Assembly: GCF_900129775.1 (NCBI RefSeq)
Contig: NZ_FQWV01000001.1
Coordinates: forward strand, 517,780 to 581,779
Reading direction: 5' to 3'
From: Halobaculum gomorrense
Lineage (GTDB): Archaea > Halobacteriota > Halobacteria > Halobacteriales > Haloferacaceae
DNA: 64,000 bases
Shown here one piece after another: positions 31,062 through 60,083 of the stretch. The position numbers and the translations under genes are program-made. The notes below the pieces were generated by a model that was not told the origin of the DNA, did not search any database, and saw nothing but the letters and a program-made list of their open reading frames with translations. Every line of letters starts with the position of its first letter. The first letter of the stretch is position 1.

Positions 31062-34000
31062 ATGAGCGATTCGCAGGCGGGCCTCGACCAGTTCGCCGGC
31101 GGCGGGGACGCCGACGCCGGGGACGGCCACGGGGACCGCCCCGACGCCGAGGCGGCACACGTCGCCGGCGCGGGGCAGGGGCGAGTGAGCGCGGTCGTCG
31201 ACCGCGAGGACATCGTCGTGCCGGACTCGACGGGTACTGTCGAGTTCATGGTCACCGCCGTCGACTACACCGTCGAGGGAACTGGCGCCGAGGAGTACCC
31301 CGTCGTCCACGTGTTCGGGCGGACCGCCGACAACGAGCCCGAGCACGTCCGCGTCCTCGGTATCGAGCCGTACTTCTACGTCGCGACGGCTGACATCGAG
31401 GATCGGACTCTCGTCGAGGAGTACGACGTGATCCTCGACACGCGTGAGGAGGGGCCGAACGGCGGGCGGTTCGAGTCGATCCGAGGGGAGCCGGTGACGA
31501 AGGTCGTCGCCCGAACGCCCCGCGACGTGGGCCAGATCCGCGACGACTTCGAGCGGACGTACGAGGCGGACATCCTGTTCCCGAACCGGTTCCTCATCGA
31601 CCACGGCGTGACCTCGGGGCTGCGCGTCGAGGAGCGACGACTCGACGCGCGCGACGGCGAGAATCTCGGCCGGCTGCAGGTCACGCCAGACCACCTCGAA
31701 CCGACTGACGTGGACGCGGACATCCGCGTGAACACCTTCGACATCGAGGTCGACGACCGCAACGGGTTCCCGGAGGATGGCGAGGAGCCGGTCGTGTGTC
31801 TCACCTCTCACGACTCCTACCGCGACGAGTACGTCGCCTGGCTGTACGACGCGCCCGTCGGCGGCGTCGACGCCCCCGCGGCACTCGACGACTACGAGCA
31901 GATCGGCGACCGCGACGGCGACCTGCGGGTCGAGACGTTCGCCGAGGAGGACGCCATGCTCGACGCGTTTCTCGAATATATCTCTAACACCGATCCAGAT
32001 ATTTTAACTGGTTGGAATTTCGAAGATTTCGACGCGCCGTACTTCCTCGACCGCTGTGAGGAACTCGACCCGAGGAGCGACTACGACCTCTCCCCGGACC
32101 GGCTCTCGCGCGTGAACGAGACGTGGCGCTCGGGCTGGGGCGGCCCCGACGTGAAGGGCCGGGTCGTGTTCGACCTGCTGTACGCCTACCAGCGCACCCA
32201 GTTCTCTGAGCTGGAGTCGTACAGGCTCGACGCGGTCGGCGAGCTCGAACTCAACGTGGGCAAGGAGCGCTACACCGGCGATATCGGCGACCTCTGGGAG
32301 AGGGACCCTGAGCGGCTGTTGGAGTACAACGTCCGCGACGTGGAGCTGTGCGTCGAGATCGACCGGAAGCAGAACATCGTGGCGTTCTGGGACGACGCGC
32401 GGAAGTTCGTCGGCTGTCAACTGGAGGACGCCCCCACCCCCGGCGACGCCGTCGACATGTACGTCCTCCACAACGCCTTCGGCGACTTCGTCCTGCCGAC
32501 GAAGGGCCAACAGGAGGGCGAGGACTTCGAGGGCGGGGCTGTCTTCGAGCCCATCTCCGGGGTCGAGGAGATGGTGTCGGTGCTGGACTTGAAGAGCCTG
32601 TACCCGATGTGCATGGTGACGATCAACGCCAGTCCCGAGACCATCGTCGAGGACCCCGACTCCTTCGACGGGGAGACGTACCGCGCGCCCAACGGGACCC
32701 GGTTCCGGAAGGAGCCCGACGGCATGATGCGCGAGATGGTCGACGAACTGCTCACCGAGCGCGAGCGCCTGAAGGGCGAACGCAACGAGCACGACCCCGG
32801 GTCGGACGCCTACGAGCAGTACGACCGGCAGCAGGCCGCGACGAAGGTGATCATGAACTGCTTCACGCCGGATACGGAGGTCGTCACGACGGACGGCGTC
32901 AAAGCGATCACGGACCTCGACGTGGGCGACGAGGTGTACTCGCTCGACCCGGAGACGATGGAGATGGAGACGAAGCCGGTCACCGAGACGCACGCGTATC
33001 CCGACTACCGCGGGGACCTGATCGACATCGAGACGAGCAAGATGGACTTCCGCGTCACGCCGAACCACCGCATGCTCGTCCGGAAGGACGAGACGAACGG
33101 GGTCTCGAGAGAGGAGGACGACTACCGGTTCGTCGAGGCCGGCGGCCTTGACCGGGCGACGAACTACCAACTCCCACACGACTGGTCCGGCCCGGACGGG
33201 GACCGGATCAATGAGGTCGACCTCACCCGGCTGCTCGACGACGGCTACGAGGTCTGGGCGAACAACGACGTGCACGGCCACACGTTGGCCGCGGAACTTG
33301 GGTACTACCCGAAGAAGGTCGTCAAAAACGACATCGGGACGACTGGCTACGTCTTCTCGGCCGAGGAGTTCGAGGAGCACCGCGACTATCTGGACTCGGT
33401 CTGCTCTGAGTTCTACGTCCACAGCGAGCCGAACCGGAAGTGGGTCCCGCGAACGTACGACGGCGACGATTTCCTCGACCTCCTGGCGTGGTACGTCACG
33501 GAGGGGAACGTGTACACGTCCGAGGAGAAGCGGTTCGGCGATCAGCTCCGGGGGTCCGCCACGACGGTCAAGATCGCACAGAACGCCGTCGCGGATGGCG
33601 GGATGTCCCACCACGCCGCCATCGGCGACCTCCTTGACCGGATGGGGTTCGACACGTACGTCGACGACCGGGCGTACCAGTTCACGTCCAAACTCCTCGG
33701 CGAAGCGTTCAGGGAACTCTGTGGCGCGAACAGCTTCGAGAAACGAATTCCGGACCTCGTGTTCGACGCAAGTCAGGAACAGAAACGGCGGTTCCTCGAC
33801 ACGCTCATCGCCGGGGACGGGGACCGACAGTCGGGAAACTCGTGGCGCTACACTACGTCGAGCGACCGACTCCGCGACGACGTACTCCGGCTCTGTGCGC
33901 ACATCGGACGCACCGCGAACTACAACCACGACAGCGGGTCGTGGCGCATCTACTGCACGGAGGACTCGAAGAACACCCTTCGGACGCACCGGAGCGGCGG

Positions 34001-35144
34001 CCGGTCCACCGCCGAGGAGGGGGTGTACTGTGTCACGGTCGCGGACAACCACACACTCCTCGCCGGCCGGAACGGCAAGTTCCAGTTCGTCGGCCAGTCG
34101 CTGTACGGCGTCTCCGGCTGGGAACGATTCCGACTGTACGACAAGGAGAACGCTGCCGCGATCACCGCGATGGGTCGTCGGGTCATCGAGTTCACCGAGC
34201 AGGCAGTCGACGAACTCGGCCGTGACGTGACATACGGTGACACGGATTCGGTTATGTTGAGTTTATCTGATATTTCCGAGGAGGAGATCGAGGACGCGAC
34301 TGTCTCCGAGGAGATGGCCGAGGTCCACCCCGAGATGTCCGATCAGGATCTCCTCAGGCTCGCGGCGGTAATCCGGCTCTCACAGGAGATAGAAGAGCAC
34401 ATCAACGGCCGCTACGACGACTTCGCGCGCGAGGAACTCGATGCGGAGGAACACCGCTTCGAGATCGAGTTCGAGAAACTCTACCGTCGGTTCTTCCAGG
34501 CCGGCAAAAAGAAGCGCTACGCCGGCCACATCGTCTGGAAGGAGGGGAAGGATGTCGACGACATCGACATCACCGGCTTCGAGTACAAGCGCTCGGACAT
34601 CGCCCCCGTCACGAAGCGCGTCCAGAAGCGGGTCATCGAAATGATCGTCCACGGGGAGGACACCGAAGACATCGCCGACTACTTGCACGAGGAGATCCAG
34701 CGCTTCCTCGACGGCGACGCCGACCTCGACGAGGTTGGGATCCCCGGCGGAATCGGCAAGCGGCTGGAGAGCTACGAAACCGACACCGCTCAGGTCCGCG
34801 GCGCCAAGTATGCGAACCTCATGCTGGGCACCAACTTCCAACGCGGGTCGAAGCCGAAGCGCCTGTACCTGGAGAAGGTCCACCCGGACTTCTTCCGCCG
34901 GATGGAGGACGAGGAGGGGTTCGACCCGCAGCGTGACCCGCTGTACGGCGAGTTCAAGCGCGACCCAGACGTGATCTGCTTCGAGTACGCCGACGAGGTG
35001 CCCGACGAGTTCGAGGTCGACTGGGACAAGATGCTCGACAAGACGCTTGAAGGACCGATCGCGCGGATCATCGAGGCGCTGGGGATGTCGTGGGAGGAGG
35101 TCAAAAGCGGGCAAGAACAGACGGGACTCGGGAGCTTCATGTAG
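31062..35144 (+). CDS. polB: Family B DNA polymerase precursor with intein
   Basis: 1360 codons, giving a 947-residue polymerase after removal of a 413-residue intein (precursor residues 600-1012). Exonuclease motifs are FDIEV (Exo I), GWNFEDFD (Exo II) and YNVRDVELCV (Exo III). Polymerase motifs are DLKSLYP (A), KVIMN-SLYG (B, split by the intein) and YGDTDS (C), with KKRYAG downstream. It is the replicative or repair B-type enzyme of haloarchaea. The N-terminal ~40 residues are Gly/Asp-rich. Two short AT-rich patches (31968-32030 and 34230-34277) fall on Exo II and motif C. Transcription is from its own TATA box. Confidence 0.97.
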   Translation: MSDSQAGLDQFAGGGDADAGDGHGDRPDAEAAHVAGAGQGRVSAVVDREDIVVPDSTGTVEFMVTAVDYTVEGTGAEEYPVVHVFGRTADNEPEHVRVLGIEPYFYVATADIEDRTLVEEYDVILDTREEGPNGGRFESIRGEPVTKVVARTPRDVGQIRDDFERTYEADILFPNRFLIDHGVTSGLRVEERRLDARDGENLGRLQVTPDHLEPTDVDADIRVNTFDIEVDDRNGFPEDGEEPVVCLTSHDSYRDEYVAWLYDAPVGGVDAPAALDDYEQIGDRDGDLRVETFAEEDAMLDAFLEYISNTDPDILTGWNFEDFDAPYFLDRCEELDPRSDYDLSPDRLSRVNETWRSGWGGPDVKGRVVFDLLYAYQRTQFSELESYRLDAVGELELNVGKERYTGDIGDLWERDPERLLEYNVRDVELCVEIDRKQNIVAFWDDARKFVGCQLEDAPTPGDAVDMYVLHNAFGDFVLPTKGQQEGEDFEGGAVFEPISGVEEMVSVLDLKSLYPMCMVTINASPETIVEDPDSFDGETYRAPNGTRFRKEPDGMMREMVDELLTERERLKGERNEHDPGSDAYEQYDRQQAATKVIMNCFTPDTEVVTTDGVKAITDLDVGDEVYSLDPETMEMETKPVTETHAYPDYRGDLIDIETSKMDFRVTPNHRMLVRKDETNGVSREEDDYRFVEAGGLDRATNYQLPHDWSGPDGDRINEVDLTRLLDDGYEVWANNDVHGHTLAAELGYYPKKVVKNDIGTTGYVFSAEEFEEHRDYLDSVCSEFYVHSEPNRKWVPRTYDGDDFLDLLAWYVTEGNVYTSEEKRFGDQLRGSATTVKIAQNAVADGGMSHHAAIGDLLDRMGFDTYVDDRAYQFTSKLLGEAFRELCGANSFEKRIPDLVFDASQEQKRRFLDTLIAGDGDRQSGNSWRYTTSSDRLRDDVLRLCAHIGRTANYNHDSGSWRIYCTEDSKNTLRTHRSGGRSTAEEGVYCVTVADNHTLLAGRNGKFQFVGQSLYGVSGWERFRLYDKENAAAITAMGRRVIEFTEQAVDELGRDVTYGDTDSVMLSLSDISEEEIEDATVSEEMAEVHPEMSDQDLLRLAAVIRLSQEIEEHINGRYDDFAREELDAEEHRFEIEFEKLYRRFFQAGKKKRYAGHIVWKEGKDVDDIDITGFEYKRSDIAPVTKRVQKRVIEMIVHGEDTEDIADYLHEEIQRFLDGDADLDEVGIPGGIGKRLESYETDTAQVRGAKYANLMLGTNFQRGSKPKRLYLEKVHPDFFRRMEDEEGFDPQRDPLYGEFKRDPDVICFEYADEVPDEFEVDWDKMLDKTLEGPIARIIEALGMSWEEVKSGQEQTGLGSFM
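31968..32030 (+). other. Low-GC synonymous patch over PolB Exo II
   Basis: 63 bases encoding residues 303-323 (ending GWNFEDF) contain 21 G/C, about 33 percent, in a gene that is otherwise strongly GC-rich. Rare codons include TTA, ATT, ACT, GGT and AAT. The protein is fully conserved in sense, so the deviation is synonymous. Confidence 0.85.
32859..34097 (+). mobile_element. PolB intein with LAGLIDADG homing endonuclease
   Basis: 413 residues between the motif B halves KVIMN and SLYGVSG. Splice block A begins CFTPDTEVVTTDG, block B is FRVTPNHRMLV and block F is VYCVTVADNHTLLAG. The endonuclease has both dodecapeptide motifs, LLAWYVTEGN and LDTLIAGDGD, each with its acidic residue, so it may be active. 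The first residue is Cys, the +1 residue is Ser, but the intein ends Phe-Val-Gly-Gln instead of the usual His-Asn. It is in frame with no stop. Haloarchaeal polB inteins at this site are well known. Confidence 0.93.
34230..34277 (+). other. Low-GC synonymous patch over PolB motif C
   Basis: 48 bases encoding the TYGDTDS catalytic motif and SVMLSLSDIS contain 19 G/C; the last 27 bases have only 8. Codons TTA, TTG, AGT, GTT, TCT and ATT are unlike the rest of the gene. It begins 132 bases after the intein, and the DNA between is GC-rich, so it is a separate patch. Confidence 0.8.
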
Positions 35145-56799: not shown

Positions 56800-57645
56800 A
56801 TGGATTCGTATCCGACCGTCGCCCCGCTCCCGGGGCAACTGCTTCCGACCGGGTTCGGGCTGCCGCCGCTGCCGTACCTCGCGGGTCTCGCGCTCGCGCT
56901 GGCGGGCGTCGCGCTCGCGGTGCGCCGGCGCGACCCCGAGTTCGGCGGCCGTCACGTCCTCGCGCTGGTGCCGTGGATGTGCGTCGGCGCCGCCGGACAC
57001 GTCCTCTCGGTCGTCGGCGCGCTGCCCGCCGCGGTCGCCCCGCTTTTCGGCACCCCCAGCGCCTACTTCACGACCGCGGCCGCCGCGGGGACCGCGTGGG
57101 TCGTCGCGCTCGCGGCCGGCCGCGACGACGCCCGTGCGCTCGGCCTCGCCGGCGCGGTCACGCTCCTCCCGGCGGTGGCCGGCGTCGTCGCGTACGGGAT
57201 CGCGAACGGGACGCTCTCGCCGGTGCTCCCGGCGGCCGGCCTCGTCGTCGGCGCCGCGCTCGGCGTCGGTGTCGGTGCGCTCCTGTACCGCCTGCGCGAG
57301 GGCGCCGCGGTCGCGGGACGGGCGGGGCTGCTCGCGGTCGCCGCCCACGGCGTCGACGGCGTGACGACCGCCGTCGGGATTGATCTGCTCGGGTTCGGCG
57401 AGCGCACGCCCGCCTCGCGGGTGATCATCGAGTTCGCGGCCGGCCTCCCGACGGCCGACGCGCTGGGTGCCGGCTGGCTGTTCGTGCTCGTGAAGCTCGC
57501 GGTTGCGTGTCTCGTCGTCGTCGCGGTCGCGCCGACGGTGCGCGAGGAACCGCGCTACGGGTACGGGCTGTTGGCGCTCGTGACGGCCGTCGGGCTGGGC
57601 CCCGGCGTCCACAACGCGCTGCTGTTCGCGGTCGAGGTCGCGTAG
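56800..57645 (+). CDS. DUF63 family membrane protein
   Basis: 281 aa with about eight helices. It starts MDSYPTVAPLPGQLLPTGFG. AHGVDGVTTAVGIDLLGFG and the end YGLLALVTAVGLGPGVHNAL match the archaeal DUF63 family (PF01889), whose function is unknown. Conserved His and Asp in the membrane region (AAHGVDGVTT; VHNALL) hint at a catalytic or transport role. ATG 56800 fits the promoter. Confidence 0.83.
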   Translation: MDSYPTVAPLPGQLLPTGFGLPPLPYLAGLALALAGVALAVRRRDPEFGGRHVLALVPWMCVGAAGHVLSVVGALPAAVAPLFGTPSAYFTTAAAAGTAWVVALAAGRDDARALGLAGAVTLLPAVAGVVAYGIANGTLSPVLPAAGLVVGAALGVGVGALLYRLREGAAVAGRAGLLAVAAHGVDGVTTAVGIDLLGFGERTPASRVIIEFAAGLPTADALGAGWLFVLVKLAVACLVVVAVAPTVREEPRYGYGLLALVTAVGLGPGVHNALLFAVEVA

Positions 57646-57725
57646 GACCGCCCCGACGCCGCCTCGCCCTGCCTCGCCCCGCTCCGCCGGCCCGCCGCCC
57701 CAGCCCACGACCGCCGGTCCCCCAG

Positions 57726-58667
57726 TTACTCCGACGTGGCGACGCTCGTTTGCATCCCTTCGGAGTTGTACGCCGACCCGGCGCCCGCCTCGTCGAGGAC
57801 GATGACGCCGGCCGAGGAGCCGGTGAGCTCGCCGAACTCGTCGATCGCGCGATCGGCCGCCGCCTGCGCGTCGAGGCCGTTCTCCAGGTGTCGCACCGCT
57901 CGCCGTGTGAGCGTCGCCTTCGCGATGTCCTCGCCGGCGCCGGTGGCGCTGGCGCCGCCCGCGGGCGCACAAAAGAAACCCGACCCGATCTGGGGAACGT
58001 CGCCGACGCGCCCAGCCAGCGCGAACGTCCGTCCGCCCGTGGAGGTGCAGGCGGCGAAGGTGTCCGTCTCGGGGTCGTGCGCGACTGCACCCACCGTGTC
58101 GTGGTCTCGCGGGTGGTCCCCGCTCGACTGCTCCGCGTCGCTGCGCGATGCGCCCCCGCCGAACGTCCCCTCCAGCCACGCGAGGTGGTTTCTCGGGCCG
58201 GCGTCCGGTTCGGGCGGGTCGGCGCCCTCGTAGGCGTCGCGGCCGTCGTCGGTCACCAACTCGCGTTCGACCTCGACCCCGAAATCGTCGGCCAGATCGA
58301 CCGCGTGGACGCCCGAGACGAACACGTGGGGCGTCTCCTCCATGACGACGCGCGCGACCGCCGCGGCATTGGCCACGCCCGGCATCGAGGCGACGGCGCC
58401 GGCCTCGCGCTCGTCGGTCATGATCCCCGCGTCGGTGCGGACGACGCCGTCGGACTGGACAGCGCCGCCGTAGCCGGCGTTGAAGCGCGGGGACTCCTCC
58501 AGGTCCTCCATGGCGGAGACGACCGCGTCGACGACGCCGGTCGCGTCCGCACCGGTATCGGCCGCCTCGTCGAGGATCGCCTGTCTGGGCTCCGGTTCGT
58601 CGGGGACGCCGCCCGCGCCGCCGTGACAGATAACTCGCACGGCTCCTTCCGGGGCGGCACCGGGCAT
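57726..58667 (-). CDS. Isoaspartyl peptidase/L-asparaginase
   Basis: 313 aa N-terminal nucleophile hydrolase. It starts with VRVICHGGAGGVPDEPEPRQ. FNAGYGGAVQSDGVVRTDAG is conserved, and the self-cleavage site and Thr nucleophile are in HDTVGAVAHDPETDTFAACT, with STGGRTFALAGRVGDVPQIG and GSGFFCAPAGGASATGAGED after. It splits isoaspartyl peptides or asparagine. The linker before the Thr (RSDAEQSSGDHPRDHD) is charged. ATG 58667 or GTG 58640 could be the start. Confidence 0.9.
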   Translation of the reverse strand: MPGAAPEGAVRVICHGGAGGVPDEPEPRQAILDEAADTGADATGVVDAVVSAMEDLEESPRFNAGYGGAVQSDGVVRTDAGIMTDEREAGAVASMPGVANAAAVARVVMEETPHVFVSGVHAVDLADDFGVEVERELVTDDGRDAYEGADPPEPDAGPRNHLAWLEGTFGGGASRSDAEQSSGDHPRDHDTVGAVAHDPETDTFAACTSTGGRTFALAGRVGDVPQIGSGFFCAPAGGASATGAGEDIAKATLTRRAVRHLENGLDAQAAADRAIDEFGELTGSSAGVIVLDEAGAGSAYNSEGMQTSVATSE

Positions 58668-58786
58668 CAATCCACGGGAACCGGCCGACGGTTCGCCGCC
58701 GCGGCCGCCGGGTCGCCAGCGTCGAACGGGGACGCGCGGGGCCGGTTCGCACGGGCGTTTCGTCGCCCCGAGACGGATAACGGCAG

Positions 58787-58794
58787 GCTTTTTC
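58787..58794 (+). promoter_or_regulatory. TATA box of icd
   Basis: GCTTTTTC lies ~30 bases before ATG 58821. It fits leaderless transcription. Confidence 0.45.
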
Positions 58795-58820
58795 GCCCGC
58801 CGTCGGAAGGCGAACGTGCT

Positions 58821-60083
58821 ATGAGCTACGACATTGCCGAGCGTCCCGAAGACGGGGAGACCATCACGCTCGTCGACGAGGAGACCGGCGAACTCGACGT
58901 GCCCGAGAACCCGATTATCCCGATTATCCACGGCGACGGGATCGGCACTGACGTCGGCCCCGCGGCCCAGAAGGTGCTCGACGCCGCCGCAGAGGCGACC
59001 GGCCGCTCCATCGCCTGGATGCGCGTATTCGCCGGCGAGTCCGCCCGCGAGAAGTACGACGAGAACCTCCCCGACGAGACGGTCGAGGCGTTCCGCGAGT
59101 TCCGCGTCGGCATCAAGGGTCCGCTGACGACGCCCGTCGGATCGGGCTTCCGCTCGCTCAACGTCGCGCTGCGAAAGACGCTCGACCTGTACGCGAACGT
59201 CCGTCCCACCTACCACCTCGACGGCGTTCCCTCCCCCGTCAAGAACCCCGAGGAGATGGACATGATCACGTTCCGCGAGAACACCGAGGACGTGTACGCC
59301 GGCATCGAGTGGGAGGCCGGCACCGACGATGTCGAGCGGGTTCGCGAGTTCGTCGAAGATGAGATGGGCTTCGATTCGACCATCCACGACGGCCCGGTCG
59401 GCATCGGCGTCAAACCGGTCACGGAGTTCGGCTCCAAGCGCCTCATCCGCGAGGCCATCGACTACGCGATCAACAACGACCGCGACTCGGTCACGCTCGT
59501 CCACAAGGGGAACATCATGAAGTTCACCGAGGCCGCCTTCCGCGACTGGGGCTACGAGGTTGCCGAGGAGGAGTACGGTGAGGACGTGATCACCGAGGAC
59601 GAACTGTGGGACGAGCACGACGGCGAGCAGCCCGAGGGCACAGTGGTCGTCAACGACCGCATCGCCGACAACATGCTCCAGCAGCTGCTGACGCGGACCG
59701 ACGAGTACAACGTCATCGCGACGATGAACCTCAACGGCGACTACATGTCCGACGCCGCCGGCGCCCAGATCGGCGGGCTCGGCATCGCCCCCGGCGTCAA
59801 CTACGGCGAAGGCAAGGCGCTCGCGGAACCCGTCCACGGCTCCGCGCCCAAGTACGCCGGTCAAGATAAGGTCAACCCGACCGCGATGATCCTCTCGGGC
59901 CGCGAGATGCTCGATTACCTCGGCTGGGACGACGCCGCAGACCTCGTGCGCGACGCCGTCGAACAGCAGATCTCCGAGGGTCGCGTCACCTACGACCTGG
60001 AGCGGCAGCGCGAGGGCGCCACGAAGCTCGCCACCTCCGAGTTCGCCGAGGAGGTCGTCGAGCGGATCCACGACCTCGCGTAA
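58821..60083 (+). CDS. icd: Isocitrate dehydrogenase (NADP-type)
   Basis: 420 aa. IIPIIHGDGIGTDVGPAAQK opens the fold. Substrate residues are in TTPVGSGFRSLNVALRKTLD and LYANVRPTYHL; DMITFRENTEDVYAGIEWEA and LVHKGNIMKFTE are conserved. The metal Asp residues are in MNLNGDYMSDAAGAQIGGLG, and EPVHGSAPKYAGQDKVNPT is the cofactor region. It converts isocitrate to 2-oxoglutarate in the TCA cycle; haloarchaeal enzymes use NADP. Start MSYDIAERPEDGETITLVDE is family-like. Confidence 0.96.
   Translation: MSYDIAERPEDGETITLVDEETGELDVPENPIIPIIHGDGIGTDVGPAAQKVLDAAAEATGRSIAWMRVFAGESAREKYDENLPDETVEAFREFRVGIKGPLTTPVGSGFRSLNVALRKTLDLYANVRPTYHLDGVPSPVKNPEEMDMITFRENTEDVYAGIEWEAGTDDVERVREFVEDEMGFDSTIHDGPVGIGVKPVTEFGSKRLIREAIDYAINNDRDSVTLVHKGNIMKFTEAAFRDWGYEVAEEEYGEDVITEDELWDEHDGEQPEGTVVVNDRIADNMLQQLLTRTDEYNVIATMNLNGDYMSDAAGAQIGGLGIAPGVNYGEGKALAEPVHGSAPKYAGQDKVNPTAMILSGREMLDYLGWDDAADLVRDAVEQQISEGRVTYDLERQREGATKLATSEFAEEVVERIHDLA

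Follow-up and report, generated by a model that had tools for sequence, protein, structure and literature searches.

The 64-kb window, the whole stretch of DNA analysed here, comes from a haloarchaeon that is probably a Halobaculum, judged by its nearest named relatives. Gene polB (31062-35144, + strand, start codon ATG at 31062) encodes a family B DNA polymerase with one intein, as assigned from its open reading frame and its Pfam matches PF03104 and PF00136 (DNA_pol_B_exo1 and DNA_pol_B). The resident polB-a intein, inserted at KVIMN/S (slashes mark insertion points), occupies 32859-34097 (+) and gives Hint/intein-splicing and LAGLIDADG_3 matches. The polB-b site (LDLK/SLYP; 32592-32597, +), placed from the b inteins of loci L091 and L092, is empty and has no low-GC island (GC3 0.96). 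Elsewhere in the window, an 858-aa ORF (57507-60083, +) matches isocitrate/isopropylmalate dehydrogenase over its C-terminal 380 residues; low-GC3 stretches (57588, 57717 and 58008) fall in its N-terminal 470 residues, which lack a Pfam match and are perhaps non-coding, or perhaps the start is wrong.

Two low-GC islands in polB

A sequence-only reading of the window had described a low-GC patch at 31968-32030, and the patch is real: 21 of its 63 bases are G or C, and in the polB frame it encodes FLEYISNTDPDILTGWNFEDF. Equally AT-rich 63-bp windows make up only 3e-5 of all those in the 64 kb. The island in codon terms covers extein residues 303-322 (31968-32027, +), where GC3 over 20 codons is 0.30 compared with 0.89 for the whole of polB (binomial P = 5e-10), the minimum among 15,781 windows of this length drawn from 49 genes in the 64 kb. 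The patch was said to lie exactly on the Exo II motif; it does cross Exo II, but its centre is off the catalytic motif, the island reaching from 16 codons upstream of the intein insertion (between 32018 and 32019, described below) to 3 codons downstream. The further claim that only synonymous positions had changed did not hold, as about six residues within 304-314 are unlike most of the genus. The window allele and that of a congener (L004) have the motif LEYIS[NK] and several codons in common, and among the nearest relatives the upstream part of the island, amino acid changes included, is common only to L004. Since the island carries amino acid changes, part of it may be imported. On the opposite strand, a 682-aa antisense ORF (32004-34052, -) takes a TTA of the Exo II island as its stop codon; it is a by-product of GC-rich coding, and no gene is claimed.

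A second island (34230-34274, +; YGDTDSVMLSLSDI), weaker than that at Exo II, is the second-lowest GC3 window of the extein. It spans YGDTDS and lies across the empty polB-c site, with the insertion point between 34241 and 34242; the c inteins of relatives insert at YGD/T. Both islands of the window polB are thus empty intein targets.

The polB-d intein and its empty target at Exo II

That an intein might lie inside Exo II had been predicted from the window alone, and such an intein exists. In a search of relatives, about 1.3 kb interrupted the match at polB residues 317-325 in three genomes, whose genes read ...TGWN/CLP...VHN/C.DFD, which is the polB-d intein, with matches to intein-splicing and LAGLIDADG domains. 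When 392 genomes of the order were searched with this intein, 20 genomes from 13 of 95 genera had it, at GWN/C, the same family included; none was found in the window's own genus. The empty target in the window, AAT (N319)/TTC (F320) at 32016-32021 (+), is at the same codon position as the insertions of relatives (L111-L113 and L149-L168). An intein named polB-d is listed in six Halobacteria by Soucy et al. (2014; PMC4071816), and we infer that its site is the Exo II site seen here; the gene is the same, whereas the site in the window is empty. By a term search, that paper makes no mention of GC content, co-conversion or flanking sequence. One relative of the polB-d intein (L167, G139:C1:2938964-2940016) matches query residues 5-367 only and contains a TAG stop, and is possibly a decaying intein.

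The same low-GC codons in all relatives, which the sequence-only reading had named as grounds for refuting its own proposals, were not found: most relatives are GC-rich at polB-d. The converse expectation, that the patch would match intein-bearing flanks, failed as well, the 51 bp upstream having a mean identity of 63% to occupied alleles and 62% to empty ones. Residue +1 is Cys in all 19 readable occupied alleles and Phe in the window; the codon before the insertion is AAC in 18 of these 19 and AAT (N319) in the window. Since AAC also occurs in 88 of 101 empty alleles (AAT in the other 13), N319 gives no occupied/empty contrast at polB-d as a class. Cys at +1, the residue that precise intein loss would leave, occurs in none of the 101 empty alleles, and precise loss at polB-d was rejected for want of this scar. 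With flanks unmatched, Phe at +1 and AAT at N319, the proposal of co-conversion around a lost intein, in its simple form of a lost-intein scar, is not supported.

Nor is a Haloquadratum-like donor supported. The low-GC host L112/L168 (GC3 0.3-0.4), which we take to resemble Haloquadratum, is GC-rich in its polB-d flank, and genera for the most part differ in which AT codons they use; a single low-GC donor was therefore rejected. In the same genome (G014), GC-rich codons stand beside both the polB-d and the DP2 inteins (L168 and L286; gene GC3 about 0.3-0.4), the opposite of what the window shows, and a GC-rich donor may have supplied these codons by co-conversion. The exact island tract has no match in IMG/VR, and a viral source of that tract was likewise rejected.

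Occupied polB-d alleles have low-GC flanks out to 16 codons on either side (corrected GC3 -0.14 vs -0.01 in empty alleles, p = 7e-4), and their junction codons are normal inside this halo. Empty alleles as a class lack the halo, and the window allele is one of a minority of them with a low-GC patch; family-wide recoding at polB-d is absent, only the 13 empty alleles noted above, of the 101, having AAT at N319. Of the origins that the sequence-only reading had offered, recoding against a homing endonuclease (HEN) is the candidate that fits best.

Third-position troughs at intein sites across haloarchaea

GC3 was corrected for amino acid and host composition and, for polB, followed in 15-codon windows over 104 non-redundant genes. 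The two deepest polB troughs are at polB-c (-0.22) and polB-a (-0.14; window sd 0.04), and the other conserved polB motifs are at or above zero. In MCM, intein insertion at 333 and 360 coincides with the deepest troughs, site 398 ranking lower, and the deepest trough of DP2 is at intein site 914. Over ten sites in polB, MCM and DP2, the coincidence of troughs with intein sites has p = 8e-5 by shift permutation, and the excess of within-genus synonymous divergence at the same sites has p = 3e-4; these p-values are approximate, since some relatives are close, and neither related species nor the sites of a single gene count as fully independent. Away from intein sites, windows of equal conservation, of which there are hundreds, have no trough and no divergence excess, and conservation alone was rejected as a cause.

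Trough depth in empty alleles follows site occupancy, as inferred from alignment gaps (Spearman -0.81 over 10 sites; rho = -0.78, p = 0.001 over 14 sites with RNR added). Within RNR the most-invaded site has the deepest internal trough, although the start of the gene dips lower still; the RNR pattern is weak, with a shallow trough and no contrast between empty and occupied alleles. EF-2, which is without inteins, has mild troughs (21-codon minimum -0.06). Several choices of site and window were made after inspection of polB, so that the independent sets are MCM, DP2 and RNR. Taken together, the islands are very probably linked to intein target sites.

Four MCM loci were left out as misassigned from the comparison of empty and occupied cores and from later analyses. 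At the junction codons (four on either side), the AT shift of empty alleles exceeds that of occupied ones over six sites together (Fisher p = 2e-4; p = 0.003 when compared within genus), which suggests that inteins invade alleles with an intact core while those with a recoded core stay empty. At polB-a there is no such contrast, at RNR 430 it runs the other way without reaching significance, and the outer flanks show no consistent difference in AT shift. Occupied DP2 alleles have a common GC-rich core, even where host GC3 is 0.39. Silent transitions and GC-AT transversions in polB are both raised, about 2.3-fold, and silent C-G exchanges are not significantly raised; with transitions equal to GC-AT transversions and C-G flat, simple cytosine deamination was rejected for lack of a transition bias. 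The substitution pattern fits either an AT-biased mutation supply under selection or some other, unknown AT-directed process.

Sharing between lineages was assessed with a corrected analysis; the raw cross-genus score was set aside, because two-fold codons leave one AT choice and its enrichment is partly forced. AT choices at 4- and 6-fold codons are mostly unmatched between genera, and alleles with similar inteins do not have correspondingly similar flanks at polB-a, polB-c or DP2, with a weak relation at MCM-a; this indicates that most islands are not one donor tract, and it speaks against a single travelling tract as their general origin. Rare-codon sharing is in excess at polB-a and DP2 914, with no excess at polB-c or MCM. 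Exactly at polB-d, the window allele and Haloferax larsenii (L041) have rare codons in common (4 of 5 informative choices); for L146, the identity of the island tract is 0.78, compared with 0.72 for the rest. Two alleles from different genera (L044 and L010), both empty at polB-b, have a common rare-codon run exactly at that site (polB codons 505-521), and their pair score of 29 is the highest in the polB set. The RNR gene of the window genome (L323, G000:C8:282800-287200) resembles polB in having an AT-rich island, at codons 420-432, where an intein site is empty. Intein-free at 430, it has ENPEH and the rare codons ATT CTT GCA ACA AAT in common with the intein-bearing L348 of another genus.

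Origin and meaning of the islands

We propose, with confidence and doubt about evenly balanced, that the Exo II island is the footprint of conflict with the HEN of the polB-d intein; escape recoding would be the likeliest mechanism, and the best reading adds some lateral exchange of tracts. HENs would cut and convert intein-free alleles; alleles with altered third positions near the cut would escape cutting, or escape repair from the intein-bearing template, and would be retained because inteins are costly. Some island tracts may later move between species by gene conversion, and the window allele would be an empty escape-type allele at both polB-d and polB-c. With gene GC3 near 0.9, most new silent changes are to A or T, so that an escape allele looks low-GC. 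Several points count against escape. The islands reach about 16 codons, and a typical HEN site is narrower; escape acting on all silent changes predicts raised C-G exchanges, of which there is no significant rise; and the low-GC halo on occupied polB-d flanks points to flanks that travelled with the intein, or to past exposure. HENs are also reported to tolerate many silent changes (PMC3024317, PMC10643990). The missing core contrast at polB-a, its non-significant reversal at RNR 430, the lack of any polB-d intein found in the genus and the amino acid changes in the window island weigh on the same side. In favour of escape stand the relation of trough depth to occupancy and the core contrast over six sites; HENs are, moreover, active in vivo, escapers with point-mutant targets have been recovered, and a cost of 7% is reported for the polB-c intein (PMC10643990).

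A rather unlikely account, though the strongest of the alternatives, is co-conversion, in which the island DNA came from another lineage with an intein or by abortive homing, the intein was then lost through recombination with an empty allele, and part of the donor flank was left behind. It draws support from the halo of occupied polB-d flanks, the GC-rich flank beside the d intein of a low-GC host, the resemblance of the window genome's RNR at 430 to L348, the match to Haloferax larsenii at polB-d, the excess sharing at polB-a and DP2 914, and the upstream tract common to the window and L004 and missing from closer relatives. Against this, the window core is Phe/AAT where occupied alleles have Cys/AAC, Cys is kept in no empty allele, occupied cores overall are less AT-shifted than empty ones, flank similarity is not predicted by intein similarity at polB-a, polB-c or DP2, and polB-c and MCM lack excess sharing. 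Quite improbable is mutagenic repair, by which HEN cuts would be mended from intein-free sister chromosomes through error-prone, AT-biased synthesis and silent AT changes would pile up without selection: the islands do flank the cut, are wider than a HEN site, are AT-directed and occur in empty and occupied alleles alike, but there is no transition excess, hence no cytosine deamination, and this process alone leaves the normal junction codons of occupied alleles unexplained. That active-site motifs are under selection at the level of mRNA or DNA (translation pausing or an internal promoter), with inteins merely co-located, is the least probable of all, for although functional motifs host both inteins and islands and the intein-free EF-2 has mild troughs, islands are lacking at Exo I, Exo III and KKRY as well as in hundreds of windows of equal conservation, depth follows invasion frequency, and no family-wide trough exists at the Exo II and motif A sites.

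The footprint of HEN attack that we favour has partial parallels in known systems. Co-conversion tracts beside homing introns and inteins, of which an MCM-d Pro to Ser change is an example (PMC10643990), resemble the islands as short exchanged tracts by an insertion site; unlike them, the islands, silent and AT-shifted, are also present where no intein resides, and most are unmatched to intein-bearing flanks. HEN-resistant targets and gene-drive resistance alleles likewise alter the target with protein function kept, whereas the islands, as candidates for such resistance, are silent, multi-codon, order-wide and spread over several genes. The literature searched, largely outside subscription journals, yielded no account of silent low-GC islands where inteins insert, and their novelty is provisional.

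Homing elements are thought to choose conserved sites because the host cannot alter them. A silent footprint over several genes would suggest that the host does respond, at third positions, and would let sequence alone tell which empty sites had been attacked before. The islands also caution against reading every low-GC patch in a conserved motif as a foreign gene. Pairs of naturally recoded and normal alleles would make natural resistance to homing directly testable. More tentatively, the essential replication genes of haloarchaea may be in a silent arms race with inteins, in which third positions turn over around every frequently attacked HEN target. If this is true, AT-rich islands record attacked sites and could serve to predict intein sites that are extinct or not yet known, as well as the positions that HENs contact.
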